Shown here: positions 1-25,095 of the stretch, piece by piece
Layout: each line of letters begins with the position of its first letter
How positions within the stretch are numbered: the first letter of the stretch is position 1
NCBI RefSeq assembly: GCF_001536285.1
Contig: NZ_FAOZ01000053.1
Location: 1 to 32,352, forward strand
Source: Parafrankia irregularis
GTDB taxonomy: Bacteria; Actinomycetota; Actinomycetes; Frankiales; Frankiaceae
Reading direction: 5' to 3'
DNA length: 32,352 nt
Made by a program: the position numbers and the translations under genes
The notes under the pieces: model-generated
The model's database searches: none
Told to the model about the DNA's origin: nothing
Seen by the model: only the letters and a program-made list of their open reading frames with translations

Positions 1-97
1 CACCCGTTCGCCGCTAGGAGCAAGCTCCTCGCTCGACTTGCATGTGTTAAGCACGCCGCCAGCGTTCGTCCTGAGCCAGGATCAAACTCTCCATCAA
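1..97 (-). rRNA. rrs: 16S ribosomal RNA, 5' end only (gene continues off the window)
   Basis: Read on the minus strand, bases 89 down to 61 give the universal 16S 5' sequence (GAGTTTGATCCTGGCTCAG followed by GACGAACGCTGGCGG). The actinobacterial GTGCTTAACACATGCAAGTCGA stretch comes next, and the V1 hairpin runs to the window edge. The mature 5' end is put about 8 nt upstream of GAGTTTG, near base 97, by analogy with E. coli 16S. Only the first ~97 nt are present, so 23S and 5S should lie beyond base 1. Confidence 0.97.
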
Positions 98-3049: not shown

Positions 3050-4252
3050 TCATGGGTGCAGCCGCTGCTCGCGGGCCGCCCAGACCTTGGTGGGCAGGCC
3101 CCACAGCTCGATGAACCCGCGAGCGTCGCTCTGGTCGAACTGGTCGCCGGCATCGTAGGTCGCGAGGGCGTGGTCGTAGAGGCTCCCCGGGCTGCGACGC
3201 CCGACGACCTGGGCCACACCGCCCGACAGCCGGAGGCGCACATCGCCGGAGACGCCGGCGCTGGACGAGTCCACGAAGGCGTCCAGTGCGGCCTTGAGCG
3301 GCGAGTACCACAGCCCGTCGTAGACGATCTCGCCCCAACGCTGGTCGACACCGCGCTTGAACCGCGCGATGTCGCGCTCGAGGGTGAGGTCCTCGAGGTC
3401 CCGGTGCGCCGTCAGCAGGGTGATCGCACCCGGGCACTCGTAGATCTCGCGGCTCTTGATACCGACGAGCCGGTCCTCGATCATGTCGATCCGGCCGACA
3501 CCCTGAGCTCCGGCCCGGGTGTTGAGCTCGGCGACCAGCTCGACCAGCGACAGGGCGCGGCCGTCGAGCGCGGTCGGCACACCGTCGGTGAACGAGATCG
3601 TGACCTCGTCGGCCGGGCGCGGGACGGTCGGGTCGGCGGTGTAGACGAAGACGTCCTCCGGCGGCTGCGCCCACGGGTCCTCGAGGATGCCGCACTCGGC
3701 CGTGCGGCCGAACAGGTTCTGGTCGATCGAGTACGGCGACTTCTTCGAGACGTCGATCGGCAGGCCGCGCTCCTCCGCGAAGGCGATCGCCTTGTCCCTC
3801 GTCATCCCGGAGTCACGGACCGGGGCCAGCACCCGCAGGCCGGGAGCCAGCGCCATCACGCCGACCTCGAAACGGACCTGGTCGTTGCCCTTGCCCGTGC
3901 AGCCGTGCGCGATCGCGTCCGCGCCGTGCTGGCGGGCGGCCTCGACGAGGTGCCTGACGATGATCGGCCGCGACAGCGAGGAGATGAGCGGGTAGCGGTC
4001 CATGTAGAGCGCGTTCGCCCGGATCGCGGGGGCGACGAAGTCCGCCGCGAACTCCTCGCGGGCGTCGACGACGATCGATTCGACGGCGCCGCAGGTGAGG
4101 GCACGCTGGCGGATCGCCTCCAGGTCCTCACCGCCCTGGCCGACGTCGACGGCCAGGGCGATGACCTCGGCGCCGGTCTCGGCGCCGATCCAGCCGATGG
4201 CCACGGACGTGTCGAGGCCGCCCGAGTAGGCAAGCACGACGCGTTCGGTCAC
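3050..4252 (-). CDS. argG: Argininosuccinate synthase
   Basis: ArgG joins citrulline and aspartate using ATP (released as AMP) to make argininosuccinate. At 400 aa it is a standard length. The N-terminus shows the ATP pyrophosphatase loop AYSGGLDTS (residues ~8-16), and later come [13 protein letters not shown] and the LFGRTAECG region. The start is GTG at 4252, with a good Shine-Dalgarno (AAGGAGA) about 7 nt upstream. It follows argR after a 109-nt spacer that contains repeats, and precedes argH. It probably belongs to the argC operon, though the spacer leaves room for internal control. Confidence 0.97.
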
Positions 4253-4266
4253 TGGGTATCTCCTTA

Positions 4267-4350
4267 GTTCTGGCTCAGGTTCTCTGGTACTGGCTGAGGT
4301 TCTGGCTCAGGTTTCGTCGACACGGTTGTCGTGGGCACGGTTGTCGTGGA
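4267..4350. repeat. Short direct repeats in the argR-argG spacer
   Basis: GTTCTGGCTCAGGTT occurs twice without mismatch (4267-4281 and 4299-4313), with a degenerate copy between. Next to these, CACGGTTGTCGTGG(G/A) occurs as two adjacent 15-nt units (4321-4335 and 4336-4350). They fill most of the spacer between argR and argG. I see no hairpin or promoter of note there. Confidence 0.8.
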
Positions 4351-4361
4351 CACGGGTTGGC

Positions 4362-4937
4362 TCAGCCCGTGTCGTCATCCGGGCCCGGCGGCTCGCCGAC
4401 ACCGTCCCGGGGCGTCGGTGCGGTGGGCCTGGCCCGGCCGTCGGCCAGGGACAGCAGCCGGCCGGCGAACTCCGGGCCGGCCGACGAGCCGTTGCGCCCC
4501 TGCATCGCCCGACAGACCACGAGAATCGTGTCGTCGCCGGCGATGGTCCCCATCACCTCCGGCAGGGCCGCCCGGTCGAGGGCTGAGGCGAACAGTTGCG
4601 CGGCGCCCGGCGGAGTCCGCAGCACGACGAGATCACCGTTCGCCTCCGCCGAGACCAGCAGCTCCTCGCAGAGCCTGGTGAGCGGGATGCGCACGGCCTC
4701 GGCCGGGGCCTGGTTGACGTCCACCCGGTAGATCAGGACGCCGTCAGGCCCACGGGCCTTCGTCGCGCCGATGTCCTCCAGATCGCGGGACAGGGTGGCC
4801 TGGGTGACCTGCACGCCCTCCGCGAGAAGCAGACGCGCCAGCTCCGCCTGTGACCGTACCGACCTGGCCGCGATCAACCCGGCCAGACGCGCCTGCCGGG
4901 CGTGTTTCGTCAGGGGGGCCGCCGCGCGGATCGTCAT
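4362..4937 (-). CDS. argR: Arginine repressor ArgR
   Basis: This transcriptional regulator binds ARG boxes when arginine is present. The N-terminal winged helix-turn-helix is seen in [13 protein letters not shown] and [14 protein letters not shown] (residues ~28-58). The C-terminal hexamerisation/arginine-binding domain carries the family motif [12 protein letters not shown]. At 191 aa it is longer than the usual 150-170 because of a proline- and charge-rich tail after the last conserved residues. Its ATG overlaps the argF stop (ATGA), so the repressor is made from the operon it controls. Its likely target is the pair of ARG boxes at argC (10483-10520). Confidence 0.95.
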
Positions 4938-5899
4938 CGGAGGGCGGCCTCCGACGAGGCGTCGTCTGAGGCGTCGTCGAGCAGGACCGACAGCAGTGCC
5001 TTCTGGGCGTGCAGCCGGTTCTCCGCCTGGTCGAACACCACCGACCGCGGGCCGTCCAGCACCGCGGCGGAGATCTCCACGTCGCGATGCGCGGGCAGGC
5101 AGTGCATGACGATCGCGTCCGGGCGCGCGACCTCGACGACCTTCTCGTCCAGGCGGTAGGGCTGGAAGACGAGCGCTCGGGTGTCCGACTCGTCGTCCTG
5201 GCCCATCGACGCCCAGACGTCGGTGTAAAGCACGTCCGCGTCGGTCGCGGCCTCCAGCGCGTCGTGCATCACCAACGCCTCGCCGCCGGTGACCGCGCCG
5301 ATCTCGTTCGCCTGCCGGACGACCTGGTCGAACGGCTCGTAGCCGGGCGGAGACGCCACATGAACCCGCATCCCGGCCATGGCCCCGGCGAGCATCAGCG
5401 AGTGCGCGACGTTGTTGCCGTCGCCCAGGTAGGTCAGGGTCAGGCCCGCGAGGCGGCCGCGCAGCTCACGGATGGTCTGCAGGTCGGCGAGCGCCTGGCA
5501 GGGATGGGCGTGGTCGGAGAGCGCGTTGATGACGGGCACGGTGGCCGCCGAGGCCATCCGCTCGACCCTTTCCTGCGCGAACGTCCGGATGACGATCGCG
5601 TCCACGTAGCGGCTGAGGACGGCGGCTGTGTCCTCGATCGTCTCCCCCCTGCCCAGCTGGGTGGAGGCGGAGTCGATCACGATCGGGTGGCCGCCCAGCT
5701 CGGCGACCGCCACGTCGAACGAAAGGCGGGTCCGGGTCGACGGCTTCTCGAAGATCAGCGCGACCGATCGGCCCTCGAGTGGACGGGGGGCCGTGCCACG
5801 CTCGCGGCGGGTGGCCTTGAGCCGGTCGGCGAGATCCAGCAGTGCGGCCTGCTCGGCCGAGGTCAGGTCCGTGTCGAGCAGGAAGTGTCGGGCCGTCAT
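4934..5899 (-). CDS. argF: Ornithine carbamoyltransferase
   Basis: ArgF makes citrulline from ornithine and carbamoyl phosphate. Carbamoyl-phosphate binding motifs are present: [11 protein letters not shown] (STRTR, residues ~51-61) and HPCQALADL. The ornithine-side MHCLPAHR is also there, with the reactive cysteine. At 321 aa the length is normal for the anabolic enzyme. It starts at ATG 5899, overlapping the argD stop as ATGA, and its own stop overlaps argR in the same way. Confidence 0.97.
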
Positions 5900-7125
5900 G
5901 GGCTGACCTTAGAGCTTTCGCCCGGGTTCTTCCCGGCCTCGGCCCGGCCACGGCCAGCCAGGACGCCGGCGGTGATTCCGGGCAGCGCCGACACGAACGC
6001 GTCCACGTCGGGCTGGGTGATCACCAGTGGTGGCGCGAGCCGGACGACGTCCGCGGCGACCGCGTTCACCAGGAAGCCGGCCTCGCGCGCGGCGGTCTCC
6101 AGCTCGGCGGCCCAGGGCCCGTCGAGCTCGATCGCCCGCCACAGCCCGACGCCGCGTACTCCGGTGACGCCGGCGGCGCCGGCGGCGAGGATCCCCGCGC
6201 GCAACGACTCGCCCAGCGCGGTCGCGTGGTCGAGCAGGCCGTCGGCCACGATCGTGTCCAGGACCGCGAGGGCGGCCGAGCAGACGAGGGGGCCACCGCC
6301 GAAGGTGCTGCCATGGTCCCCGGGCTGCAGCAGGCGCCCGGCGGCGCCGATGCCGATGCAGACCCCGATGGGCAGCCCGCCGCCCAGCCCCTTCGCGAGG
6401 GTGATCACGTCGGGGACGACGCCCGCGGTCTGGTGGGCGAACCAGGCGCCGGTGCGCCCGATGCCGCTCTGGACCTCGTCGAGCACCAGCAGCGCGCCGT
6501 GCTCGTCGCAGGCCGCGCGGGCCGCCGCGAGGTAGCCGGGCGGCGGCGCCACCACGCCGCCCTCACCCAGCGTCGGTTCCAGGAAGACCGCGGCCGTGCG
6601 CTCGCTGACCGCCTCGGCCAGCGCCTGCGCGTCGCCATAGGGAACGAAGCGCACACCGGGCAGCAGCGGCTCGAAGGGCGCCCGCTTCCCGGGCTGGCCG
6701 GTGATGGACAGCGCTCCCATGGTCCGCCCGTGGAAGGCGCCCTCGGCCGCGATGATCTCCGACCGGCCGGTCCGACGGCTGATCTTGATGGCGGTCTCGT
6801 TCGCCTCGGCGCCCGAGTTGCAGAAGAACGCCCGCCCGTCCACGCCCAGCAGCTCCATCAGCCGCTCGGCCAGCAGGACCTGAGGCGTGTTCACATACAG
6901 GTTCGAGGTGTGGCCGAGCGTGTCGAGCTGCGCGACCACCGCGGCCCGTACCGCCGGATGGCAGTGCCCGAGGACGCTCACCGCCACACCGGCGATCAGG
7001 TCCACGTACTCGCGGCCGTCGGCGTCCCACACGTGGGCACCGGCGCCACGGGTCAACGCGATCGACGGCCGGCCGTAGGTGGCCATGACGACGGCGTCCC
7101 GCCGGTCGAGCAGGTCGGCGTTCAC
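5896..7125 (-). CDS. argD: Acetylornithine aminotransferase
   Basis: This PLP-dependent class-III aminotransferase converts N-acetylglutamate semialdehyde to N-acetylornithine. The PLP lysine is in [14 protein letters not shown]. The cofactor-phosphate region [15 protein letters not shown] and [14 protein letters not shown] (the Asp contacting the pyridine nitrogen) are intact. It is 409 aa, close to the family's ~400. The start is GTG 7125, overlapping the argB stop (GTGA). It could also act as succinyldiaminopimelate aminotransferase, as some ArgD proteins do, but the operon supports arginine synthesis. Confidence 0.96.
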
Positions 7126-8123
7126 GATTCTCCTTCGGTGATGTCCGTGCCGGGGCCTGCCGTGCCGGGGCCGGCCGTGCCGAGGCCGGCCGTGCCGAGG
7201 CCTGCTCCGTCGTCGGCCCGGATCAGGGTGCCGATCCCCTCGTCGGTGAAGACCTCCAGCAGCACTGCGTGGGGCACCCGCCCGTCGAGCACGTGGGCCT
7301 GGGGAACCCCGCCGGAGACGGCCCGCAGGCAGGCTTCCATCTTCGGGATCATTCCGGACGACAGGGAGGGCAGGAGCCGCTCCAGCTCGCCTACCGTCAG
7401 TTCACTGATCACCTCGTCGCTGGCCGGCCAGTCCGCGTAGAGACCTTCGACGTCGGTCAGCACCACGAGCTTCGTCGCTCCCAGCGCCAGGGCCAGCACC
7501 GCGGCAGCCGTGTCCGCGTTGACGTTGTACACCCCGCCGTCGAGCCCGCGGGCCACCGAGGCCACGACCGGGACCTTGCCCGAGTCCAGCAGCGCGTTGA
7601 CGGTCTCGGGCTGGACCTCGACCACGTCACCGACCAGCCCGACGTCCACGGCCTGGCCGTCGACCATCGCCGGGCGGCGACGGGCGGTGAACAGGTTCGC
7701 GTCCTCGCCGGAGAGGCCGACCGCGAACGGGCCGTGGTCGTTGACCAGGCCGACGACATCCCGGTTGACCTGGCCGACGAGGACCATCCGGACGACCTCC
7801 ATCGTCTCGGGCGTGGTCACCCGCAGGCCGCCGACGAACTCCGAGGCCACCCCGAGCCGCTCCAGGTGCGCGGTGATCTGCGGGCCGCCGCCGTGCACGA
7901 CCACCACCCGGATGCCCGCATAGCGCAGGAAGACGATGTCGGCCGCGAACGCCTCCCGCAGCTCGGGCCGGGTCATCGCGTTCCCGCCGTACTTGATCAC
8001 CATCGTCGCCCCGTGGAACCGGGACAGCCACGGCAGGGCCTCGATGAGGACCTTCGTCTTCGTGAGCGCGGAATGCCCACGTGCCCGCGCGGCCGGGCCG
8101 CGCGTCGACGGACTGTCGCTCAT
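7122..8123 (-). CDS. argB: Acetylglutamate kinase with repeat-bearing C-terminal tail
   Basis: ArgB phosphorylates N-acetylglutamate and is normally the arginine feedback point of the pathway. Family motifs are present: VIKYGGNAM with the phosphate-binding Lys, [11 protein letters not shown], and [16 protein letters not shown]. The start is ATG 8123, overlapping the argJ stop (ATGA), and gives 333 aa. After the last conserved residues (GIGTLI) there is a tail of about 30 residues made largely of a pentapeptide repeat ([10 protein letters not shown], four copies), which is encoded by a 15-bp tandem repeat. The tail is unlikely to be catalytic. Confidence 0.96.
7147..7206. repeat. 15-bp tandem repeat x4 in the argB 3' end
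   Basis: Four contiguous units occupy 7147-7161, 7162-7176, 7177-7191 and 7192-7206, each a variant of GTGCCGGGGCCGGCC. They are in frame and encode the AG(L/P)GT pentapeptide repeats at the ArgB C-terminus. Confidence 0.92.
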
Positions 8124-9283
8124 GTCGAGTACGCCGAGTTCTCGTAGACGTACCCGTCGGTGAGGTCGTTCGTCCGCACGACCACCTCGGCGGAGCCCGC
8201 GTGCAGGTCCGCGACGATGCTGATCTCCCGCCCGGAGAGGTCGACCAGGTCCCGGGACTCGCCCGGGGCGCCGGCCCGGCACACCTGGACACCGTTCATG
8301 GCCACGTCGAGCTGGTCGGGCTCGAACGCCGCGGCGGTGGTGCCGATCGCCGCGAGCACCCGGCCCCAGTTCGGGTCCTTGCCGTAGAGCGCGCACTTGA
8401 GCAGGTTGTTCCGCGCGATCGCCCGGCCGACCTCCAGCGCATCCGCCTCGGAGGCCGCCCCGGTGACCGTGATGGAGATCGTCTTCGTGGATCCTTCGGC
8501 ATCGCCGAGCATCTGGCTCGCCAGGTCCTCGCAGACAGCGGTGACCAGCTCGGTGAGCTCGGCCTCGGGCAGCGCCCGCTCCGACGCACCCGACGCGAGC
8601 AGCAGCACGGTGTCGTTTGTCGACAGGCAGCCGTCGGAGTCGACCCGCTCGAAGGTCGTGCGGCAGGCCTCCCGCACGACCCGGTCAAGAGTCGCGGCGT
8701 CGGCGACGGCGTCGGTCGTGACGACGACGAGCATCGTCGCGAGCGACGGCGCCAGCATGGCCGCGCCCTTGCCCATGCCGCCGACGGTGACGACGCTCCC
8801 GCCCTCCCGGCTGTGGCGGACCGCCTCCTTGGCCACGGTGTCGGTGGTGCGGATGGCCTCGGCCGCGGCGCCCCCGCCACTCGCGGACAGCGCGGCCACC
8901 GCCTCGACCACCCCCGGGAGCAGGAGGTCCATGGGCAGCGGGACACCGATCAGGCCGGTCGAGCAGACCGCGACCTCGCCCGCTCCGATGCCGATCTCGG
9001 CGGCGACCCGCTCCGCGGTGGTGTGGGTGTCGGCGAACCCCGCCGGCCCGGTGCAGGCGTTCGCCCCACCGGAGTTGAGCACGACCGCGCGCAGCCGGCC
9101 TCCGGTGAGGACCTGGCGGGTCCACAGCACGGGCGCGGCCTGCACCCGGTTGCGGGTGAACACGCCCGCCGCGGCATCGGCGGGACCGTCGTTGACGACG
9201 ATCGCGACATCTGGACGCCCGGACGGCTTCAGCCCGGCCGCGACTCCGGCGGCCCGGAAGCCCTGGGCTGCGGTGACGCTCAT
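8120..9283 (-). CDS. argJ: Bifunctional ornithine acetyltransferase / N-acetylglutamate synthase
   Basis: ArgJ recycles the acetyl group from acetylornithine to glutamate. Bifunctional versions can also use acetyl-CoA. Conserved blocks include [13 protein letters not shown], then TTDTVAKEA with the threonine where the precursor self-cleaves into alpha and beta chains, and [18 protein letters not shown]. It is 387 aa, full length, starting at ATG 9283. It follows argC after a 133-nt spacer filled with 15-bp repeats, and overlaps argB by ATGA. With argJ present the cell uses the cyclic acetyl pathway. Whether this enzyme is mono- or bifunctional cannot be told from the sequence. Confidence 0.96.
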
Positions 9284-9319
9284 GCCTGTTCCCCTTCCCC
9301 ACTCACTCCGACTACGGAC

Positions 9320-9409
9320 CGGCTGCCCATGACCCGGCGAGCCACGACCCGGCGAGCTATGACCCGGCGCGCCATGGCCCCGCAGCCCGCGGCCCGGCGA
9401 CCCGCGGTT
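9320..9409. repeat. 15-bp tandem repeat x6 in the argC-argJ spacer
   Basis: Six contiguous 15-nt units related to CGGCGAGCCATGACC occupy 9320-9409, with increasing divergence toward the argC stop. They fill most of the only large gap in the first half of the arginine operon. They are not in the frame of either neighbouring gene. Confidence 0.88.
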
Positions 9410-9416
9410 GACGCGG

Positions 9417-10481
9417 TCACGGGGCGAGACCCTGGGCGCTCAGGCCGGTGCCCTCCGGCTGGCCGAGCATGAGGTTGGCGCACTGGAGCGCCTGGCCCGC
9501 GGCGCCCTTCGTGAGGTTGTCGATGGCCGCCACGACGACCACCCGGCCGGCCTCGGCGTCCACCGTCGCCTGCAGGTGCACGCAGTTGCTGCCGAGGGTG
9601 GACGAGGTGTGCGGCCACCGGCCCGGCGGCAGCACCCGCACGAACGGCTCGCCGTCGTAGAAGGCTCGCAGGATCCCGGTGACCGTCTCGGCGTCCGCGC
9701 CGAGGCCGGTGCCCAGATCGTCACCAGCCGCGAGCTCGGCGGACAGGCGGGCGGTGCAGGTCGCAAGAATGCCGCGCGGCATCGGCGCCAGGACCGGGGT
9801 GAACGACAACGACACCGGTGACCGCGCGTACCGGGTGAGGGTCTGGACGATCTCGGGCCGGTGCTGGTGACCACCGACCTTGTAGGCGGTCAGGTCACCC
9901 ATCACCTCGCTGCCGAGGAGGTTGACCTTCGCCGACCGCCCGGCGCCGGAGGTGCCGCTCGCGGCGACGACGACCAGATCGGACGGATCCACCGCGCCGG
10001 CCGCGATCAGCGGCACCAGCGCCAGGGTGATCGCGGTCGGGTAGCACCCCGGCGCGGCGACCCGGTTGCTGACCCTGATCTCCTCCCGGGCCCCGGGCAG
10101 CTCCGGCATGCCGTAGGTCCAGGTGCCGGCGTGTTCGCCACCGTAGGCCCGCCGCCACACCCGCGGGTCGGCCAGGCGGTGGTCGGCCCCGAGATCGACG
10201 ACCCGCACGCCGGCCGGCAACGTGGCCGCGACCGCGCCCGACTGCCCATGCGGGAGCGCGAGGAAGACGATGTCGGCGCTCGTGTCGGCCAGGGCCGCGG
10301 TGTCGACGAACACCTGCCCGGCGAGATCGGGCAGGTGCGGATGCACCTCGGTCACGTCCACACCGGCGGACGTGTTGGCCGCCAGGTCACCGATGTCGAT
10401 GCCGGGGTGGCCGAGCAGCAGCCGAAGCAGCTCCCCGCCGCCGTACCCGCTCGCGCCCGCTACCGCCGCAGTCACACCCAT
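9417..10481 (-). CDS. argC: N-acetyl-gamma-glutamyl-phosphate reductase
   Basis: ArgC reduces N-acetylglutamyl phosphate to the semialdehyde with NADPH. The N-terminal Rossmann motif is GASGYGGGELLRLLL, and the catalytic cysteine is in APGCYPTAITLAL. The full 354-aa protein runs from ATG 10481. A GTG at 10499 is in frame but lies within the -10 region of the probable promoter, so I reject it. It is the first gene of the arginine operon. The predicted transcription start is only about 3-5 nt upstream of the ATG, so the message would be nearly leaderless, with no Shine-Dalgarno. Confidence 0.96.
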   Translation of the reverse strand: MGVTAAVAGASGYGGGELLRLLLGHPGIDIGDLAANTSAGVDVTEVHPHLPDLAGQVFVDTAALADTSADIVFLALPHGQSGAVAATLPAGVRVVDLGADHRLADPRVWRRAYGGEHAGTWTYGMPELPGAREEIRVSNRVAAPGCYPTAITLALVPLIAAGAVDPSDLVVVAASGTSGAGRSAKVNLLGSEVMGDLTAYKVGGHQHRPEIVQTLTRYARSPVSLSFTPVLAPMPRGILATCTARLSAELAAGDDLGTGLGADAETVTGILRAFYDGEPFVRVLPPGRWPHTSSTLGSNCVHLQATVDAEAGRVVVVAAIDNLTKGAAGQALQCANLMLGQPEGTGLSAQGLAP

Positions 10482-10482
10482 G

Positions 10483-10520
10483 ATTGAAAACTTATACACA
10501 CTCGCCTATGGAAATTCAAG
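10483..10520 (-). promoter_or_regulatory. argC promoter overlaid by two ARG boxes
   Basis: The minus strand has a -35 TTGAAT (10519-10514), a 17-bp spacer and a -10 TATAAG (10496-10491). Two matches to the ArgR core TGnAT-N4-ATnCA overlap it: TGTATAAGTTTTCA (10498-10485) and TGAATTTCCATAGG (10518-10505, good in one half and weaker in the other). Their centres are 20 bp apart, matching the 2-3 bp gap between 18-bp boxes in known arginine operators. The AT-richness stands out from its surroundings. Repression by ArgR (4362-4937) is the natural inference. Confidence 0.8.
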
Positions 10521-10525
10521 AACCA

Positions 10526-10537
10526 GGTCACGTGACC
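10526..10537. promoter_or_regulatory. 12-bp perfect palindrome upstream of the argC promoter
   Basis: GGTCACGTGACC is a perfect palindrome whose centre is about 47 bp upstream of the predicted argC start and 6 bp above the -35. It could bind a dimeric regulator, but none is identified. Confidence 0.4.
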
Positions 10538-10673
10538 GCGCCGGCGACAACCTCCAGAGCGGGGGCACCTATTACCGACTCGTTACGTGAAAGTAAAGGA
10601 CAGAGCCGACGCCGCCGGGGCACACTTCTACAAAGACCACTCCGGGACAACGAGGTACCGGGGTGGGAAACGG

Positions 10674-10706
10674 GTCGGGGTGGGTGCCAGCAGCACCCAC
10701 CCCGAC
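10674..10706 (-). terminator. Probable intrinsic terminator of the pheST operon
   Basis: A perfect 14-bp inverted repeat (10674-10687 and 10693-10706) with a 5-nt loop lies about 100 nt downstream of the pheT stop, ahead of the argC promoter. No long U-tract follows, as is common for hairpin terminators in high-GC actinobacteria. The rest of the 10538-10805 spacer holds nothing else I recognise. Confidence 0.7.
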
Positions 10707-10805
10707 TCATCACCCAGACATCCGACCCACCCAGGCATCCGACGCCTCCGCACCCGCACCCGATCTCCGCCGGGTATGCGCGCGGACGCGGCGGGTCAGC
10801 CGCGC

Positions 10806-13451
10806 TCAGCCACGCAGCACCGCTCCAGTGCGGCTCGCGGCCTCGGCCACCGCCGCGTCGCGGATGTCGTTCGCCTCCCCGGCGGTCAGCGTGCGGTCGG
10901 CGGCACGCAGCCGGAGACCGAACGCGAGCGAACGCCGACCGGGGCCGACCTGACCGCCCTCGTAGACGTCGAACAGCGACAGCGACTCCAGCAGCTCCCC
11001 GGCGCCGGCCCGCAGCGCCTCGGTCACCGCGGCGACGGGCACCTCGGCACCGGTCACCAGCGCGACATCCCGGTCAGCCGGCGGGAAGGTGGAGATCGCG
11101 GGCGCGGCGACCGCCGGCCGTTCGAGCGCCACGGCGATCAGCGCGTCGAGGTCGAGCTCCATGGCGCACGAGCGGGCCGGCAGCCCGGCGGCGCCCAGCA
11201 CCCGCGGGTGCAGCTCCCCCGCGTGCCCGACGACCCGGCCGTCGACCGACAGCTCGGCGCAGCGGCCGGGATGCCACGGCAGTACGTCACCGGCGCTGAC
11301 CTTGAGCTCCACCCCGACCGCCGCCGCGACGCTGTGCGCGCCGGCGACCGCGTCGCCCCAGTCGGCGGCCCGGCCCGGGCCCCACCAGCCGGCAGGCTCA
11401 CGCAGACCCGTGAGGATGACCGCCACGTGCCGCGGCTGGTCGGGCAGGGCACTGTCCAGCGCGCGGATCTCGGCCTCGTTGGGCCGGCGGTCGACGGGCG
11501 GCGTGGCGACCGCGACGGCACCCCCCGCCGGCTCGCGGAAGACCAGTCCGCTCTCGAAGAGGGCGAGATCGGTCTGACCGCGGCCGAGGTTGCGGCCAGC
11601 GGCGTCGATCAGCCCGGACAGCAGCGTCGTACGCAGGTACGAGGCGTCCTGCGCGATCGGGTTGGTCACCCGGACGGCGGCCCGGCGCGGGTCGCCGTCG
11701 GGCAGGCTCAGGACGTCCGCGGCGTCCGCACCGACGAACGGCAGGGTCAGCACCTCGACGAAGCCGTCGGCGGCCAGCGCCCGCCCGACCGCCCGACGCA
11801 GCCGCTGCGCCTCGGTCAGCCCACGGCCCGCGGGAAGCAGCGGCAGGGTGACCGGGATCGTGTCGTAGCCCTCCAGGCGCACGACCTCCTCGACGAGGTC
11901 CGCCGGGCGCGCCAGGTCGGGACGCCACGAGGGCACCGTGACCTCGACCGTGCCCGAAGCGGCAGCACCCGACGCGGCAGCGCCCGACGCCGCGACATCC
12001 GAGGACGCGACATCCGAGGCGGGGCCGGAGACGACGGCGCCGATGTCGGCCAGCCGCCGCCGGATCACGTCGACGGGGTAGGGGCGACCGGCGAGCCGCT
12101 CCGGCTCACCCAGCGGGAAGGCGATCGTCACCGGTGCCGGCCGGTGGTCGACGTCGGTGCCGCCCGGCTCGGCGCTGGCACCGGCCAGCTCACCCAGCAG
12201 GTCGACGGCACGCTGCGCGGCCACCGGGGCGAGCGCCGGGTCCACGCCGCGCTCGAACCGCCGTGACGCCTCGGAACCGAGGCGGTGGCGGCGGGCGGTC
12301 CGCGCGACCACGATGGCGTCGAAATGCGCCGATTCCAGCACGATGTCGGTCGTCGTCGCGGAGATCTCCGTCGCCGCGCCGCCCATCACGCCGGCGAGCG
12401 CGATCGGACCGGAGTCGTCGGCGATCACCAGGTCCTCGGGGTCGAGCACCCGGTCGACCCCGTCAAGGGTGAGCAGACGCTCACCGGCCCGGGCCCGGCG
12501 GACGACGATCGGCCCGGAGAGCTTGGCCCGGTCGAAGGCGTGCAGCGGCTGGCCCAGCCCGAGCATCACGATGTTGGTGACGTCGACCGGGGCGGAGATC
12601 GGCCGCATCCCGGCCAGCGAGAGCCGCCGGGCCCAGCCCAGCGGGGTGCGGGCGTTCGGGTCGACGCCACTGACGACGCGCGCGACATACCGGTCGCAGG
12701 CGAGCGTGTCCTCCACTCGGACCGGGTAGCCCGCCGCACCGGCTTCCCCGCCATCGCCGGTGTCACCGGGCAGCGGGCCGGCGTCGGACGCCAGGCCACC
12801 CCACTGGCCTGGATCACCGAAGGGCAGACCGAACGCGGTGGCCGTCTCCCGGGCGATACCGCGCACCGACAGCCCGTACCCACGGTCGGGCGTGACGGCG
12901 ATGTCGAGTACCTCGTCGCTGACGGCGAGCAGCTCGGCGACATGCGCGCCGATCGGCGTGTCCGGCGGCAGCACCAGGATCCCGCTGTGGTCATCGCCCA
13001 GCCCCAGCTCACGAGCGGAGCAGATCATGCCGTCGCTGACATGCCCGTACGTCTTACGCGAGCTGATCTCGAAGCCGCCGGGCAGGACGGACCCGGGCAG
13101 TGCCACCGGAACCCGGTCACCGACCTCGAAGTTGAAAGCGCCGCAGATGACGCCGCGCACGCCCGGCTCGGAGACCTCGGCACCCGCCGCACCAGCCGCG
13201 TCCGCCGCATCGGACACGTCCGCCGCGCCCAGCTCCGCGACGCGGACCTGGCACCAGCGGACGTCCTTCTTCTTCGTCGGCACGACCTCGATGGAGACCA
13301 CCTCGCCGACCACGACCCCGGCCAGGTCCGAGCCGACGGTCTCCAGCCCCTCGACCTCGAACCCGGCGCGGATCAGTGCCTCCGCGACGGCCTTCGCCGG
13401 CGGCAGCGGGGCGCCGACCACCTCACGCAGCCAGGACATCACGATTCTCAC
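10806..13451 (-). CDS. pheT: Phenylalanine-tRNA ligase beta subunit
   Basis: PheT pairs with PheS to charge tRNA-Phe. The N-terminus (VRIVMSWLREVV) matches the family's MRxPxSWLREYV start, so I place the start at GTG 13451, four bases after the pheS stop. An ATG at 13439 would cut off conserved residues. Domains in order are an OB-fold tRNA-binding domain (~40-160), the B3/4 editing region, B5, the catalytic-like core and a C-terminal anticodon-binding FDX-ACB domain (STFPPADRDVALV onward). At 881 aa it is longer than the usual ~800-830, partly through Ala/Asp-rich insertions, including a 15-bp tandem repeat at 11953-12027. Confidence 0.96.
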   Translation of the reverse strand: MRIVMSWLREVVGAPLPPAKAVAEALIRAGFEVEGLETVGSDLAGVVVGEVVSIEVVPTKKKDVRWCQVRVAELGAADVSDAADAAGAAGAEVSEPGVRGVICGAFNFEVGDRVPVALPGSVLPGGFEISSRKTYGHVSDGMICSARELGLGDDHSGILVLPPDTPIGAHVAELLAVSDEVLDIAVTPDRGYGLSVRGIARETATAFGLPFGDPGQWGGLASDAGPLPGDTGDGGEAGAAGYPVRVEDTLACDRYVARVVSGVDPNARTPLGWARRLSLAGMRPISAPVDVTNIVMLGLGQPLHAFDRAKLSGPIVVRRARAGERLLTLDGVDRVLDPEDLVIADDSGPIALAGVMGGAATEISATTTDIVLESAHFDAIVVARTARRHRLGSEASRRFERGVDPALAPVAAQRAVDLLGELAGASAEPGGTDVDHRPAPVTIAFPLGEPERLAGRPYPVDVIRRRLADIGAVVSGPASDVASSDVAASGAAASGAAASGTVEVTVPSWRPDLARPADLVEEVVRLEGYDTIPVTLPLLPAGRGLTEAQRLRRAVGRALAADGFVEVLTLPFVGADAADVLSLPDGDPRRAAVRVTNPIAQDASYLRTTLLSGLIDAAGRNLGRGQTDLALFESGLVFREPAGGAVAVATPPVDRRPNEAEIRALDSALPDQPRHVAVILTGLREPAGWWGPGRAADWGDAVAGAHSVAAAVGVELKVSAGDVLPWHPGRCAELSVDGRVVGHAGELHPRVLGAAGLPARSCAMELDLDALIAVALERPAVAAPAISTFPPADRDVALVTGAEVPVAAVTEALRAGAGELLESLSLFDVYEGGQVGPGRRSLAFGLRLRAADRTLTAGEANDIRDAAVAEAASRTGAVLRG
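11953..12027. repeat. 15-bp tandem repeat x5 inside pheT
   Basis: Five adjacent 15-nt units (11953-11967 through 12013-12027) related to CCCGACGCGGCAGCG encode ASD/AASG-type pentapeptides in a linker of PheT. The units are in frame and diverged. Confidence 0.85.
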
Positions 13452-13455
13452 CGGG

Positions 13456-14574
13456 TCAGCCCTCGATTCCGAACGGCAGGCCGAAGCGGACGTCGCCGTC
13501 GACGAAGTCCCGGATCTCACGGACGTCATGCCTGGTCATCGCCGCGCGCTCCAGGCCCATCCCGAACGCGAAGCCGCTGTAGCGGGCGGGGTCGACGCCG
13601 CAGGCGCGCAGCACGTTCGGGTCGACCATGCCGCAGCCGCCGGCCTCGATCCAGCCCTCGTCCGAACAGACCCGGCACGGCTGGCGGCCCGCGTCGCCGC
13701 GGCAGGCGAAGCACTGGACGTCCAGCTCGGCGGAGGGCTCGGTGAACGGGAAGAACGACGGCCGCAGCCGGGTGGACAGGCCCGAACCGAACAGGGCCTG
13801 GGCGAACACCTCCAGGGTGCCCCGCAGGTCGGCCATGGTGATGCCCTCGTCGACGGCGAGGCACTCCAGCTGGCCGAAGACCGGCGAGTGCGTCGCGTCG
13901 ATCGTGTCGTTGCGGTAGGTGCGCCCCGGGCAGACCACGTACACCGGCAGTGGACGGGACAGCAGCGAGCGGATCTGCACCGGCGAGGTGTGCGTGCGCA
14001 GCAGCCGACCCGACGCGGCGGGCTCGACGTAGAGGGTGTCGTGCTCGCTGCGCGCCGGGTGGTCGGGCGCCATGTTGAGCGCCTCGAAGTTGAACCAGTC
14101 GTGCTCGACCTCGGGCCCCTCCGCGACCTCGTAGCCCATGGCCACGAAGACGTCGGTGAGCCGGTCGGAGAGCAGGCTCAGCGGGTGGCGTGCGCCGTGG
14201 CGCCGGCGGTCGACGGGGAGGGTCACGTCGACGCGCTCGGCGATCAGGATCTCGGCGTCGCGGCGCGCCGTGAGCTCGGTCAGCCGGGACTCGTAGGCGG
14301 TGCGGACGGCGGCGGTGGCGGCGTTGTGCGCCCGGCCGGCCTGCGCTCGCTGCTCGCGCGGCAGCGCGCCGAGCTGGCGCCGGGCCAGCGCGAGCGGCGC
14401 GGACTGGCCGTCGACGTGCGCGGAACGCACGGCGGACAGCGCGTCCAGGCCGTCGGCCGCGGCGATGGCCGCGAGCGCGGCGGCCACGTCGGCGTCCAGC
14501 CGGTTCTGGTCCAGGGCACCGAGATCCACAGGATCAGCGGTCTCGTTGGGGGCGGGCACGATGATCATCCTCAT
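13456..14574 (-). CDS. pheS: Phenylalanine-tRNA ligase alpha subunit
   Basis: PheS is the catalytic subunit of phenylalanyl-tRNA synthetase. It has the N-terminal coiled coil (~45-90, Ala/Arg/Glu-rich). Class-II motifs follow, with the DTLYVEP and TSPVQIRSL region, and motif 3 is FAFGMGLERAAM. The cysteine-rich CFACRGD, CRVC and GGCGMVDPNVL block is typical of actinobacterial PheS. From ATG 14574 it is 372 aa, within the family range. A second ATG at 14568 and a GTG soon after are also possible. pheT follows at once. Confidence 0.95.
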   Translation of the reverse strand: MRMIIVPAPNETADPVDLGALDQNRLDADVAAALAAIAAADGLDALSAVRSAHVDGQSAPLALARRQLGALPREQRAQAGRAHNAATAAVRTAYESRLTELTARRDAEILIAERVDVTLPVDRRRHGARHPLSLLSDRLTDVFVAMGYEVAEGPEVEHDWFNFEALNMAPDHPARSEHDTLYVEPAASGRLLRTHTSPVQIRSLLSRPLPVYVVCPGRTYRNDTIDATHSPVFGQLECLAVDEGITMADLRGTLEVFAQALFGSGLSTRLRPSFFPFTEPSAELDVQCFACRGDAGRQPCRVCSDEGWIEAGGCGMVDPNVLRACGVDPARYSGFAFGMGLERAAMTRHDVREIRDFVDGDVRFGLPFGIEG

Positions 14575-14656
14575 CGGTGGGTGGCGGGCCTGCGCGGCCC
14601 GCCGAACGAATGGGTCGGTTCTCCCGGGGCGCCCGCCGGTGGTGCGTCGTGCGGCC

Positions 14657-15796
14657 TCAGCCGAACACGGGCCCACCAGCGGGCACGGAAAATCGGAACT
14701 CCGCCCCGCCGCCCGGCGCCTTGCCGACCGAGATCGTCCCGCCGTGTGCCTCGATCAGCGCCTTGGCGATGTACAGCCCGAGACCCGTGCCGTTGCCACG
14801 GCTCGCACCGCGCCAGAACTTGGCGAACACCCGGCTGGCGTTGGCTTCCGGCACACCCTCGCCCTCGTCCGCGACGGTCACCTCGGCTCCTGTAGATGTT
14901 CCGCTGAGCACGACGGTCACAGTACCCGCGCCGTGGCGCAACGCGTTGTCGACGAGGTTGTGGAGAACCTGGTCGATCTTGTCCGGGTCGACCCACATCT
15001 CGGGGAGCTCACCGGTGAACCGGACGTCGAACCGTTCCGCCGGGGCGGAGCCGGCCGCGATCTTGCCCTCGACGACACGCCGGACGGCCGCACGCATGTC
15101 GACGATCTGCTTGCGGATCTGGACCCGACCGGCGTCGATGCGGGAGACGTCCAACAGCTCGGTCAGCAGCCGGGTGACGCGGTCGGCGTCGGTGTTGACC
15201 GTGTTGAGCATCAGTTTCTTCTGCTCGTCGGTGAACCTGTCCCAACGGGCGAGAAGTGTGGCGGTGAAGCCCTTCACGCTGGTCAGCGGCGAGCGCAGCT
15301 CGTGGGCGACGGTGGCGATGAGGTCCGCGCGGTTGCGTTCGATCCGCTCCCTGCTGACCGTGTCCCGCAGGCAGACCGCCACCCGCACCAGCACCCCGTC
15401 GACCCGGGTGAAGCGGGCGGTCACGTTGAAGTCGTGGTCGGAGTCCGGGCCGGCGTAGGTCAGGCGGCGTTCCGGCTGCCCGGTGACCCGGGGCAGCTCA
15501 CGGCTCGGCTGCGAGCACTCCCACCAGTCGTTGCCCCGTTCGTCGAGCAGCGGGAGGACCTCGGTGAGGTGACGCCCCACCGCCTTGCCCTGCGGCAGGC
15601 CGGTCACCTTCGAGGCGGCGCTGTTGAACATCTCCACGACACCCGACGCGTCGGTGACGACCACCGGATCGGGCAGCAGGTCGAGGGTCGCCGGAGTTTG
15701 CAGGTCCACCGACTCCTCCGCGGTATCGGGACCGGGACCAGGAACCTCGTTCCCGGAGAACTCCGGCCCGGGAGCGGAAGCGACGATGCGTGTCAA
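14657..15796 (-). CDS. PAS-domain sensor histidine kinase (orphan, soluble), TTG start
   Basis: This is a two-component sensor kinase without membrane segments. A PAS domain lies at ~40-145 (LLPDPVVVTDASGVVEMFN at its start). HisKA carries the phospho-acceptor His at ~165 (ATVAHELRSPLTSVKGF). HATPase follows, with the N box (HNLVDNALRHG), G1 (DEGEG), F box (FAKFWRG) and G2 (GTGLGLYIAKALIEAHGG). I start it at TTG 15796, which overlaps the methyltransferase stop as TTGA and has GGAGG 9 nt upstream. This gives 379 aa. Longer reading upstream is only a shadow of the methyltransferase gene. No response regulator is in the window. The location between rplT-trmH and pheS is a known actinobacterial arrangement, but the signal is unknown. 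Confidence 0.92.
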   Translation of the reverse strand: MTRIVASAPGPEFSGNEVPGPGPDTAEESVDLQTPATLDLLPDPVVVTDASGVVEMFNSAASKVTGLPQGKAVGRHLTEVLPLLDERGNDWWECSQPSRELPRVTGQPERRLTYAGPDSDHDFNVTARFTRVDGVLVRVAVCLRDTVSRERIERNRADLIATVAHELRSPLTSVKGFTATLLARWDRFTDEQKKLMLNTVNTDADRVTRLLTELLDVSRIDAGRVQIRKQIVDMRAAVRRVVEGKIAAGSAPAERFDVRFTGELPEMWVDPDKIDQVLHNLVDNALRHGAGTVTVVLSGTSTGAEVTVADEGEGVPEANASRVFAKFWRGASRGNGTGLGLYIAKALIEAHGGTISVGKAPGGGAEFRFSVPAGGPVFG

Positions 15797-16755
15797 CGCG
15801 CCCCACCTCCACTGGCACCGGACGTAGCTGACCGCACCGCTCTCTGCGCCCGCGCCGACGCATACATACACAGCGCCGACGCAACCGCAAGATTCAGTGA
15901 CTCGGCCTGACCGTACACCGGCACCCTTACCGCCGTGTCCGCGGAGGCCGCCGTCGCGGCCGTGAGGCCTCTCGCCTCGTTGCCGAAGACCCACGCGGTG
16001 GGGCCGGCAAGCACTCCCGCGGCGGCGAGTTCGTCGAGATCGCGGTCCGCGTGACCGGACGTCGCCAGCACCTGGCAGCCGAGCTCACGCAGCTCCCGCA
16101 CGACCGTGGGCGCGTCGGCGGCCACGATCACCGGGAGGTGGAACAGGCTGCCCGCGGACGAGCGCACGCACTTGCCGCCGAACGGGTCGACACTGTCACC
16201 GACGAACACGACCGCATCGGCGCCGGCCGCGTCCGCCGAGCGGATCACCGTGCCGGCGTTACCCGGATCGTTCGCGCCCTCGCACACCGCGACCAGGCGC
16301 GGCCGCCCCAGATCCGCCAGCCGGTGCCCGGGCAGCTCGGCGACGCCGACGAGCCCCTGCGGGGTCACCGTCTCCGAGAGAGCTGCCGCGGCGGCATCGG
16401 TCACGAACCGGACCGGCACGCCGGTTCCGGCCATCAGCTGGCCGTGCCGCGCCAGGGCCGACTCACCGACGAACAGCTCGACCAGCGCGTCGGCCTGCAG
16501 CGCCGCGGTGACGGCCTGGGCCCCCTCGACGAGGAACAGGCCCTCCTCACGGCGCGCCGCCGCACGCCGCAGCCGCCGGGCGGCGGCGACGTGGGCGGAG
16601 CGAAGCCCGTCGAACCGGTCGGGCGACGGGCCGGCGTTCAGAACGCCCCCACCCGTGAACGGGCCGGTGGACGAAGCTTCCGACAGCCCGGTGGACGACC
16701 CCGTGGACGACGTCGACCTGCCCGCGGAGGGGCGCTGCGGGCGGCGAGGTGACAC
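15793..16755 (-). CDS. SpoU/TrmH-family RNA 2'-O-methyltransferase
   Basis: This SAM-dependent SPOUT-fold methyltransferase probably acts on 23S rRNA or tRNA. The substrate-binding N-domain begins at RFDGLRSAHVAAARRL, with the EGLFLVEGAQAV core. The knotted catalytic domain shows the three family motifs: CEGANDPGNAGTVIRSADA (motif 1), VFGNEARGLT (motif 2) and VPVYGQAESLNLAVASALCMYA (motif 3). Upstream of the core is a ~45-residue Ser/Thr/Gly-rich leader. The only ordinary start between the rplT stop and the core is GTG 16755 (320 aa), without a clear Shine-Dalgarno. The product resembles RlmB/TsnR-type enzymes. The exact target cannot be assigned. Confidence 0.9.
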   Translation of the reverse strand: MSPRRPQRPSAGRSTSSTGSSTGLSEASSTGPFTGGGVLNAGPSPDRFDGLRSAHVAAARRLRRAAARREEGLFLVEGAQAVTAALQADALVELFVGESALARHGQLMAGTGVPVRFVTDAAAAALSETVTPQGLVGVAELPGHRLADLGRPRLVAVCEGANDPGNAGTVIRSADAAGADAVVFVGDSVDPFGGKCVRSSAGSLFHLPVIVAADAPTVVRELRELGCQVLATSGHADRDLDELAAAGVLAGPTAWVFGNEARGLTAATAASADTAVRVPVYGQAESLNLAVASALCMYASARAQRAVRSATSGASGGGAR

Positions 16756-16778
16756 CGGCGGAGGACGGCGGCGGGCTC

Positions 16779-17159
16779 TCAGGCGGCCGAGGCCTCGGCG
16801 GCCACGGGCAGCGCGGCGCGGGCGACCTCGACGAGAGCCGCGAACGCGGCCGCGTCGTTGACCGCGAGATCGGCCAGGATCTTGCGGTCGACCTCGACAC
16901 CTGCCAGGCGCAGGCCCTGCACGAAGCGGTTGTAGGTGAGACCGTTCGCCCGGGCGGCGGCGTTGATACGAGTGATCCACAACTGCCGGAAGTCGCCCTT
17001 GCGCGCGCGACGGTCCCGGTAGGAGTAGGTCATCGAGTGGAGCATCTGCTCCTTGGCCTTGCGGTAGAGCCGCGAACGCTGGCCCCGGTATCCGCTGGCG
17101 GCCTCGAGGACCTCGCGGCGCTTCTTCTGGGCGTTGACCGCCCGCTTCACGCGTGCCAT
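16779..17159 (-). CDS. rplT: 50S ribosomal protein bL20
   Basis: bL20 is an early-assembly protein of the large subunit. The sequence is canonical: [15 protein letters not shown], then [18 protein letters not shown], and [22 protein letters not shown]. At 126 aa it has an Ala-rich tail, slightly longer than the usual 117-120. It follows rpmI and infC, the conserved order in which L20 often represses the operon. GGAG lies about 12 nt before the ATG. Confidence 0.98.
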
Positions 17160-17243
17160 GAGGGCACCTGTCTCCTTCGTTCGTTCACGTTCGTTCGCGT
17201 CCGGTCCGGTCGGCCGCCCTGCGCGGCCACCAGGCCGGAGATG

Positions 17244-17438
17244 TCAGCGGCCCAGCAGACGCTTGATGCGGCGGTCGTCCGCGGAGCTCAGCACGACCTC
17301 GTCGTAGAGCCGGCGGGTGCGACGGCTCGTCTTGTGCTCAAGGAGGTGGGCGCGGTTGGCACGCCGGCGCATCACCTTGCCGGTACCGGTGACACGGAAC
17401 CGCTTGCCGGCACCGGTGTGACTCTTCATCTTGGGCAT
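17244..17438 (-). CDS. rpmI: 50S ribosomal protein bL35
   Basis: bL35 is a small basic protein of the large subunit, 64 aa. The start [21 protein letters not shown] and the [11 protein letters not shown] motif are diagnostic. The downstream spacer to rplT (17160-17243) contains repeated TTCGTTC-like bases but nothing recognisable as regulatory. Confidence 0.98.
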
Positions 17439-17550
17439 GATCGCGTCCCTGTGGTGGATTTCGGATGCTCGTCTGGGCGCGCCCGTCTGGTGCCCGTGTT
17501 CATGCGCGCCTGGGCCGGTACGACGTCTGGCGACGCCGACCGGTGGTAGC

Positions 17551-18105
17551 TCACCCCTGGGTCGCCGACTCCGGGACTCGCTGGGGCTTGGCGGGGCCCT
17601 TGTGCGGGGCCATGACCATCGTCATGTTCCGCCCGTCCTGCTTGGGCTGGGCCTCGACGTAACCGAGATCGGCGACATCGGTGGACAGCCGCTGCAGCAG
17701 ACGGATACCGAGCTCGGGCCGTGACTGCTCACGCCCACGGAACATGATGGTGATCTTTACCTTGTCGCCGGCCTTGAGGAAGCGCACGACGTGACCCTTC
17801 TTGGTCTCGTAGTCGTGCGGATCGATCTTCGGTCGGAGCTTCATCTCCTTGATGACCGTCTGGACCTGGTTCTTACGAGCCTCACGACGCTTCTGGTCGG
17901 ACTCGTACTTGAACTTGCCATAGTCCATCAGCTTGCAGACCGGCGGACGGGCGGTCGGCGCCACCTCGACGAGGTCGAGATCCGCCTCCTGCGCGAGGCG
18001 CATGGCCTCTCCGATGGAGACGATGCCGATCTGCTCGCCCTCCGCTCCCACGAGGCGAACCTCCGGGACGCGGATCCGGTCGTTGATGCGTGACTCTGTG
18101 CTGAT
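17551..18105 (-). CDS. infC: Translation initiation factor IF-3, probable ATC start
   Basis: IF-3 keeps 30S subunits free and checks initiation codons. The N-domain ([15 protein letters not shown], then [22 protein letters not shown] and [15 protein letters not shown]) and C-domain ([12 protein letters not shown] and onward) are complete. The first ATG/GTG in frame (18051) would remove the conserved INDxIR segment. The true start is most likely ATC at 18105-18103, with a strong GGAGG (18117-18113) 7 nt upstream, giving 184 aa. Rare AUU/AUC-type starts are known for infC and let IF-3 repress its own translation. rpmI and rplT follow. It is odd only in the start codon. Confidence 0.95.
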
Positions 18106-18460
18106 GTGCGTTCCTCCGTGGCTCGACGCGCGGGCACGACCTCACCGCAGCGGAGCACCAAGCCCGGGGTAACCCAGGCTCCCGGCCGACATGCCGTGGC
18201 AACGGCTCGGCCGACCGGCGACCCGGCCACCGCGCCAGCCGGCGGGCTGGCGACCGGCCGGATCATCTCCGACGGCGGCGACGGGTGGAGGGCGAACCCC
18301 CGCTTTGACCTGGTTACGCGGGCACGACGTATGCGACTGCGCCGAAGTGGGACAGTCTGGGTGCGACTGCCGGACACGGCGACCGAAGCATGGTGCCAGT
18401 ACCTGCCACCAGGTGGTCTGCAGCCCAGCGTAGCAGAGCCCGCGGCGAGGGACGATCAAC
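18106..18460 (-). promoter_or_regulatory. infC leader and promoter region
   Basis: About 350 non-coding bases upstream of infC. They include the strong Shine-Dalgarno GGAGG (18113-18117) and an inverted repeat around 18162-18181 (AGCCCGGGGT against ACCCAGGCT). A -10-like TACGCT lies near 18430 without a convincing -35. A long structured leader fits autoregulation by IF-3 or L20, but I cannot identify a known leader family. Confidence 0.4.
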
Positions 18461-18589
18461 AAGGGCTTCCGTCCCGATCCGCCCCGCGCGCCCGGCCAGG
18501 CCAGGCCAGGGGCGACAGCCCCGCTCCGGATCCCGGTCGGTCACCGACCGGCGTACCGCCACGATCAACGCCGAGCCTTTTCCATCTCA

Positions 18590-24736: not shown

Positions 24737-24743
24737 CCGCGCG

Positions 24744-24861
24744 CGTCCTCCCATCCGGACTTTCACCGTCGGTCCCGGAATTCCACCAGGTCCACCGGCC
24801 ACCACACGGGTGGACGGGTCGCGGACTATCACCGCCGGCTCGGAATTTCACCGACCCCGGA
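24744..24861 (-). promoter_or_regulatory. FMN riboswitch (RFN element)
   Basis: On the minus strand the conserved RFN core is plain. It begins at GGTCGGTGAAATTCCGAGCC (near 24857-24838), then GGCGGTGATAGTCCGCGACCC. After a variable stem come GGTGGAATTCCGGGACCGACGGTGAAAGTCCGGATGGGAGGA-type segments (ending near 24746). It lies about 140 nt upstream of ribE, so ribE-ribBA-ribH should be turned down when FMN is plentiful. Confidence 0.95.
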
Positions 24862-25095
24862 GCGCGCGTGCTGTTGTCAGTACGCGGTCAAGTCTGACAT
24901 ACGACGGCCTCGGACGCTCGGGCCCACGAGCGTAATTCACGTCATTCTCCGAGGGCCCACAATCGGTACGGAGCGGCACCAACGGGCAGTCGACACGCGA
25001 CCATCAACATCGCGGCGCGACCACATGGACGCCCATCGTGAAAATCGATCAATAACTCTCGGCGAACATCACCGAAAGTAATGAATCAATTCCGA
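24862..25095. other. Spacer between rpe and the FMN riboswitch
   Basis: About 230 bases, unusually AT-rich near the rpe stop (25030-25095). It should hold the promoter of the rib operon, but I found no convincing -35/-10 pair. A TTGACC at about 24890-24895 lacks a good -10 partner. No gene is visible. Confidence 0.5.

Follow-up and report, generated by a model that had tools for sequence, protein, structure and literature searches.

A putative ArgR operator-promoter superimposed on the argC start codon of Parafrankia irregularis, and the leaderless or near-leaderless arg message predicted from it

Contig NZ_FAOZ01000053.1 of Parafrankia irregularis (assembly GCF_001536285.1), analysed here over its whole length of 32,352 bases and referred to as the window, carries an arrangement in which putative ArgR sites, a predicted promoter and the argC start codon are packed within about 40 bp; similar packing recurs in many actinomycetes. 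We consider it probable (about 0.82) that this operator-promoter drives an argCJBDFR(G) mRNA with a leader of only 0-4 nt, that ArgR represses it by occlusion, and that argR belongs to the operon. According to the proposed mechanism two 20-bp ARG boxes would stand head to tail, the distal one holding the -35 element and the proximal one, which ends on the argC start codon, the -10 element. RNA polymerase would start on the A of the ATG or no more than about 4 nt from it, and the argC message would be read without a Shine-Dalgarno (SD) site. ArgR, probably in complex with arginine, would occupy both boxes and would thereby keep the polymerase away from -35 to +1. Repression would also limit the amount of ArgR, since its gene stands further down this chain of genes.

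The arg genes and their surroundings

Genes were identified by matches to protein family profiles, and their coordinates are listed in Table 1 together with the elements discussed below. The product of argC is an N-acetyl-gamma-glutamyl-phosphate reductase (TIGR01850), 99% identical to ArgC of Parafrankia sp. EUN1f. The gap of 133 bp between argC and argJ leaves room for a second promoter serving argJ-argR; much of it (9319-9400) is taken up by 15-bp tandem repeats, and arrays of 12- and 15-bp repeats are found in the argR-argG gap (4267-4355). From argJ to argR the genes overlap by ATGA or GTGA, which makes feedback of ArgR through a shared transcript likely, and co-transcription would extend over the whole operon. 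The first-pass annotation had placed ArgR in the same operon, and the profile match and the chain of overlaps bear this out. The protein passed TIGR01529 and scored below the cut-off of 200 on NF002880 (185.1 bits); no second ArgR was found in the 9.5-Mb genome. Its best match in the PDB was 3ere (E 1.7e-39), and 3fhz, 3laj and 3lap were matched as well; the aligned residues 10-144 include GTIAGDDTI, a motif linked to arginine binding in the part of PMC5839063 that was covered.

Table 1. Features of the argC region and the arg gene chain in the window
Feature	Position	Strand	Remarks
argG	3050..4252	-	TIGR00032, 501.4 bits (cut-off 268.2); 109 bp after argR; preceded by AAGGAG
argR	4362..4937	-	TIGR01529, 135.6 bits (cut-off 130.45); ATGA overlap with argF
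argF	4934..5899	-	TIGR00658, 399.9 bits (cut-off 280.85); ATGA overlap with argD
argD	5896..7125	-	NF002874, 598 bits (cut-off 457); GTGA overlap with argB
argB	7122..8123	-	TIGR00761, 251 bits (cut-off 151.3) on 7122-8060; ATGA overlap with argJ stop
argJ	8120..9283	-	NF003802, 445.7 bits (cut-off 351)
argC CDS	9417..10481	-	TIGR01850, 361.6 bits (cut-off 233.6); ATG at 10481 aligned with start codons of relatives
Predicted transcription start zone	10481..10485	-	leader 0-4 nt, predicted from the two -10 registers
Proximal ARG box GTGTGTATAAGTTTTCAATC	10482..10501	-	touches ATG; contains putative -10; 11.4 bits; aligned box in relatives
Putative -10, register B, TAAGTT	10489..10494	-	fits TANNNT; ends 7 nt before ATG; would be fully leaderless
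Putative -10, register A, TATAAG	10491..10496	-	17-bp spacer; ends 9 nt before ATG
Distal ARG box	10502..10521	-	adjoins proximal box; contains putative -35; 3.7 bits, weak
Putative -35, TTGAAT	10514..10519	-	read from the sequence; of the 90 pairs scoring at least 12 bits, 41 have TTGNAT at positions 3-8 of the distal box
Strong hairpin between pheT and argC	10664..10716	-	24-nt arms, 83% complementary

Upstream of argC, and on the same strand, lies pheT, which ends at 10806 (profile match and ORF list) and leaves an intergenic region of 324 bp. The hairpin in this region is a probable pheT terminator: for 10650-10800 a folding energy of -94.8 kcal/mol (z -4.67) was calculated, and a terminator scan requiring a T-tail did not list the structure. 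A 17-bp direct repeat (10711-10743) lies beside it. No Rfam family was matched at the argC start region; the only matches in the window were an FMN riboswitch (24739-24869, minus strand, 95.5 bits, gathering score 66.2) and the beginning of a 16S rRNA gene (1-97, minus strand, inside the first 100 bases of the gene). As the low end of the contig lies inside the 16S rRNA gene, the assembly stopped at an rRNA operon.

ARG boxes in front of argC

The window was scanned with a matrix derived from ten S. coelicolor boxes belonging to argC, argG, argH, arcB and SCO1086 (PMC5839063, Table 1), termed the arg-gene matrix. No single site in the window scored higher than the proximal box, and 10482-10521 was the best pair (15.1 bits), the next one scoring 6.0. 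A pair of contiguous 20-bp imperfect palindromes, the form that defines a Streptomyces-type ARG pair, was thus found at 10482-10501 and 10502-10521, with a centre-to-centre spacing of 20 bp. Single sites of at least 11.4 bits appeared in 11% of simulated windows. In contrast, first-order Markov simulation of the window gave no value of 15.1 bits at 20-bp spacing in 200 runs (highest value 13.7), and the pair score was not reached either when the 200 bp before argC were simulated 5000 times. The 38-base site occurs in the genome once, here, even with up to three mismatches permitted.

It had been claimed that TTGAAT-17-TATAAG coincides with two ArgR boxes 20 bp apart from centre to centre, and this was borne out by the sequence and by the pair score. 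The site had been placed at 10483-10520; its true extent is 10482-10521. Of the two box matches, the proximal one stood firm and the distal one was weak in the window's genus (1.5-5.8 bits across six genomes), where, however, the string TTG.AT.T.CATAGG within it was identical in all six. The weakness of the distal box counts against the proposed operator, as does a second matrix built from 37 boxes, which takes in many weak sites: in its ranking the proximal box came 10th in the window and the pair came 6th among the pairs listed, so that the site was not singled out. Both observations would fit an AT-rich start region that resembles ARG boxes by chance and has no role for ArgR, and so would the existence of actinomycete families that look leaderless and have no pair recognised by the model. 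Such a coincidence is nevertheless very unlikely in view of the simulated windows, of the relatives' pairs at the corresponding place, which score up to 27.3 bits within the Frankiaceae, and of the class-wide survey described below, where the 90 pairs that reached 12 bits were without exception spaced by exactly 20 bp, 19-22 bp being allowed.

Promoter elements and the predicted start of transcription

Read on the minus strand, the region upstream of argC consists of TTGAAT (10519-10514), 17 bp, TATAAG (10496-10491), nine bases and the ATG at 10481, and in the window sequence no GGAGG-like sequence precedes the ATG. The -10 element had been said to end 10 bp before the ATG; its position was correct, and ten is the count to the A of the ATG, the intervening bases being nine. 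Compared with a sigma-70-type housekeeping promoter, whose hexamers stand 16-18 bp apart, TTGAAT-17-TATAAG has 9 of 12 matches, and with the sixth-position rule dropped the window holds four such pairs as compared with a mean of 1.03 per simulated window; the -35/-10 match by itself says little. A promoter scan of 8500-18500 demanding T at the sixth position of the -10 returned no promoter-like sites, and it was bound to miss the one at argC, since TATAAG ends in G. Support for the putative argC promoter comes instead from its conservation in relatives.

Two overlapping hexamers could serve as -10. Register A would place +1 near 10484, with a leader of about 3 nt, whereas register B would place it at the argC ATG and leave no leader. 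Register A occupies proximal-box positions 6-11, where the family-weighted consensus has TATAnT, and lacks T at its sixth position; register B stands 19 bp from the -35, and its TANNNT gap is 7 nt in all six genomes of the window's genus. The window's argC shows two sequence traits expected of a leaderless gene, namely no SD site and a hexamer (TAAGTT) ending 7 nt before the ATG.

A genuine leader of 3-4 nt, as register A would give, is a variant of the preferred explanation and not exclusive of it, and we put it at somewhat less than an even chance. It is favoured by TATAA being invariant in the six genomes of the window's genus, by the 17-bp spacer and by the agreement of register A with the class-wide position of the -10 within the box. 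We lean, however, to register B, because a hexamer at exactly 7 nt from the start is seen again in lineages whose box-to-ATG distances differ by 2 nt, and because an ATG or GTG at +1 is described as necessary and sufficient for leaderless initiation in mycobacteria (PMC4633059, text covered in part). As leaders shorter than 9 or 10 nt count as leaderless in S. coelicolor, the term covers both registers. The expectation that transcription starts a few bases from the ATG can therefore be kept as regards the nearness of the start, with either register, and so a leader of about 3 nt or none, being compatible with the sequence.

Conservation in the Frankiaceae

In 33 Frankiaceae genomes the edge of the proximal box lay directly before the start codon (0 nt) in 20, 2 nt inside it in 11 and 11 nt from it in the remaining two. 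An SD match before argC was found in none of the 33, the window's genome included, and the gap between a -10-like hexamer (TANNNT or TATAAN) and the start was exactly 7 nt in 30 and 6 nt in one more. By this comparison two further claims of the first-pass annotation held up: that box, promoter and ATG are superimposed (box edge at 0 or -2 in 31/33) and that argC probably lacks an SD and is transcribed from the ATG or from close to it. Named strains, such as Frankia torreyi, Frankia sp. QA3 and Parafrankia soli, have the argC arrangement of the window.

Conservation was concentrated next to the gene. Mean column identity over the last 41 bases before the ATG was 0.87 in genus g1 (6 genomes), 0.87 in g6 (8 genomes) and 0.80 in g5 (11 genomes), and it was 0.48-0.59 in two 30-base stretches between -110 and -51 in the same genera. 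This drop upstream of the distal box bears on the reading in which the ArgR operator is real and the main promoter lies further upstream, in 10522-10660, producing a leadered message that lacks an SD. The length of the intergenic region leaves room for such a promoter, and the low information of the hexamer match alone is also in its favour. It is made improbable, besides the loss of conservation, by the lack of SD matches in the Frankiaceae and by the finding that a start-proximal -10 was missing in 27 of the 28 surveyed genomes with an SD match.

The same alignments served to place the start codon. The longest ORF (9417-10499) begins at an in-frame GTG at 10499, and with that start the boxes would fall inside coding sequence; GTGTATAA is moreover kept in the six genomes of the window's genus. 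In genus g5, however, the distance between box and ATG is 2 nt shorter in 11 of the 12 genomes used, so that the frame is displaced and other residues would precede the ATG, in-frame stops occur at most five codons before the start in G011, G054, G055, G095 and G116, and the GTG has no SD. On these three grounds the start at 10499 was rejected as scarcely credible, and the argC start was set at 10481 instead of the 10499 of the longest-ORF reading.

Protofrankia coriariae (L072 = L007 = G018) and Ca. Frankia californiensis (L096 = L055 = G021) carry extra bases upstream of argC. In these two of the five genomes of genus g2 the insertion brings another ATG to the leaderless position; it opens a six-codon frame, MGTPWG-stop, whose TGA overlaps the third codon of argC (ATG). 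This suggests a leaderless upstream mini-ORF coupled to argC.

Survey of actinomycete argC genes

The comparison was extended to 112 genomes, 52 of them from the relatives search (58 genomes, 55 matched; G007, G034 and G043 were left out because the gene start was missing) and 60 hand-picked from a class-wide search in which the best-scoring matches were listed. The sample is not random, and the following counts refer to related genomes that were partly chosen by hand among the best-scoring matches. A start-proximal -10 (gap 6-8 nt) alone was present in 70 genomes, an SD match alone in 27, both in one and neither in 14, the SD test being a simple 4-6-mer match that yields some chance matches. 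The split corresponds to a Fisher p of 1.3e-14, uncorrected for kinship, and a start-proximal -10 arose in 3.6% of shuffles. The -10-like hexamer and the box signal are not independent, since the ARG box has TA-rich half-sites and tends to supply a -10 near the ATG.

To every row a best pair was assigned, however poor. It lay no more than 3 nt inside or 6 nt ahead of the start ('near') in 69 genomes, of which two had an SD match, and further from the start ('far') in 38, of which 26 had one; in five it lay beyond the start. We read the AGGA of G055 as a chance match and the AGGAG of G302 as a real SD. Pairs of at least 12 bits were found in 90 genomes and not in the other 22: 58 were near and 32 were not. 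At this score and 20-bp spacing they made up 58 of the 69 near and 32 of the 38 far rows, if those of at least 12 bits among the five rows with a pair more than 3 nt past the start, which stand outside both groups, are counted with the far ones.

Only SD matches were seen in families f5, f6, f12, f13, f17, f18, f23 and f36, and both start modes were present within f14 and f28. In the two genomes of f36 the best pair was 47-49 nt away and the best single box lay 6 nt from the start, before the SD. The 14 rows with neither signal were read by eye. In nine of them a CATAnT stops 7 nt short of the start; two, from f32, contain another in-frame ATG later in the sequence, two more have the insertion described for Protofrankia, and for G037 no explanation was apparent.

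The nine genomes of f33, f37 and f40 have a start-proximal -10, no SD and no pair of 12 bits. As these families look leaderless, a leaderless argC does not need an operator of the window's kind, which counts against the proposed reading. Short repeats like TATGCGTATA run into the start-proximal -10, again with no SD, in members of these families (G181, G243, G257 and G204; L157, L171, L177 and L158) as well as in L085 and L088. The Streptomyces matrix recognised no ARG pair upstream of argC in any of these, and the repeats are possibly a different form of operator. In family f25, G074 and G218 (L200, L186) have pairs of 26.5 and 32.3 bits ending 8 and 27 nt before argC, respectively. Both have a TANNNT ending 6 nt ahead of the start and lack an SD, so that argC is probably leaderless; the box overlaps the -10 in G074 and ends about 15 nt upstream of it in G218.

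The 80 named loci, many of which are the same strains as the surveyed genomes, included 22 without a usable start or upstream sequence, which left 58 for scoring. A near pair and no SD were combined with a -10 in 32 loci and stood without one in seven; one near locus had both SD and -10. Among the loci without a near pair ten had an SD and eight did not, four of the latter with and four without a -10.

Geometry of the operator

With 29 families weighted equally, the consensus of the proximal box was TG(T/C)ATAnTCATGC. T at position 6 had a frequency of 0.57 in the proximal and 0.05 in the distal box, and T at position 11 had 0.78 and 0.27; the putative -10 appears to be written into the left half of the proximal box. 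TTGNAT was present at positions 3-8 of the distal box in 29 of 58 near pairs and in 12 of the 32 others. As 17 bp separate distal position 8 from proximal position 6, the box repeat of 20 bp would, by this consensus arithmetic, set the promoter spacer.

These observations can be brought together by assuming that the argC operator of the Actinomycetia is one inherited module, in which the 20-bp repeat gives the 17-bp spacer and the proximal box carries the -10, and in which the start codon either lies on the box or follows a short leader with an SD. The operator, the promoter and the way translation begins would then have evolved together and would have switched more than once, both states occurring in f14 and f28. 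We would give this scheme even odds. That one gene, at an unchanged operator spacing, is apparently leaderless in some lineages and SD-led in others amounts to a naturally replicated experiment. argC thus makes it testable how genes switch their mode of initiation, and whether a repressor site holds a gene leaderless.

Comparison with known systems

ARG boxes of E. coli are 18 bp long with 3-bp gaps, giving a 21-bp repeat that differs from the 20 bp of the window, and we know of no leaderless start at an E. coli ArgR operator. What the two have in common is that the ARG-box pairs of E. coli overlap the promoter, with one known exception (PMC3293853). For this and the other papers cited, part of the text was covered.

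The closest likeness is to the argC operators of S. coelicolor and S. clavuligerus, where the argC of an argCJBDR cluster, which includes argR, is preceded by two head-to-tail ARG boxes and repressed by ArgR (PMC3293853, PMC5839063). In the 2018 Streptomyces description the ARG box measures 20 bp; fragments carrying a contiguous pair of boxes at argC are bound by S. coelicolor ArgR, and of the arginine genes it is argC whose expression is reported to rise most in the argR mutant (PMC5839063). ArgR would be expected to bind the window's pair likewise. By analogy, repression in Parafrankia may depend on arginine; in S. coelicolor, added arginine caused no significant repression of argCJD, argG and arcB, a result that weighs against the proposed mechanism, and loss of argR raised expression (PMC3293853). 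The nearer box of S. coelicolor is 18 nt from the argC start codon, unlike the box of the window, which touches an ATG that has no SD; the S. coelicolor argG box is at -2 from its start codon (PMC5839063). In our survey f18, presumably the Streptomycetaceae, had a clear pair 14-15 nt away together with an SD in four of six genomes and no clear pair in the other two.

The predicted start also resembles the leaderless mRNAs of actinobacteria, in which a -10 stands just before an ATG or GTG at the 5' end (PMC4895711, PMC4681348, PMC3898074, PMC4633059, PMC3890552). TANNNT is the -10 motif in S. coelicolor (PMC4895711) and M. tuberculosis (PMC3898074). In S. coelicolor, where leaders under 9 or 10 nt are called leaderless, 21% of the primary start sites fall into this class (PMC4895711, PMC4681348), and in C. 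glutamicum about 33% of the mRNAs are leaderless (PMC3890552). The words argC and ArgR are absent from the main texts of these five papers, as far as these were covered. An arginine-related gene of C. glutamicum, argT, is reported to be leaderless; it differs in being a transporter gene, with no ARG-box overlay in the text covered (PMC10105947). Among titles and abstract openings of mostly non-subscription literature, neither a leaderless argC nor an ARG box on a leaderless start came to light. ArgR pairs at argC and leaderless messages are thus both known as parts, and their fusion into one arrangement at argC appears to be a modestly new addition to these systems.
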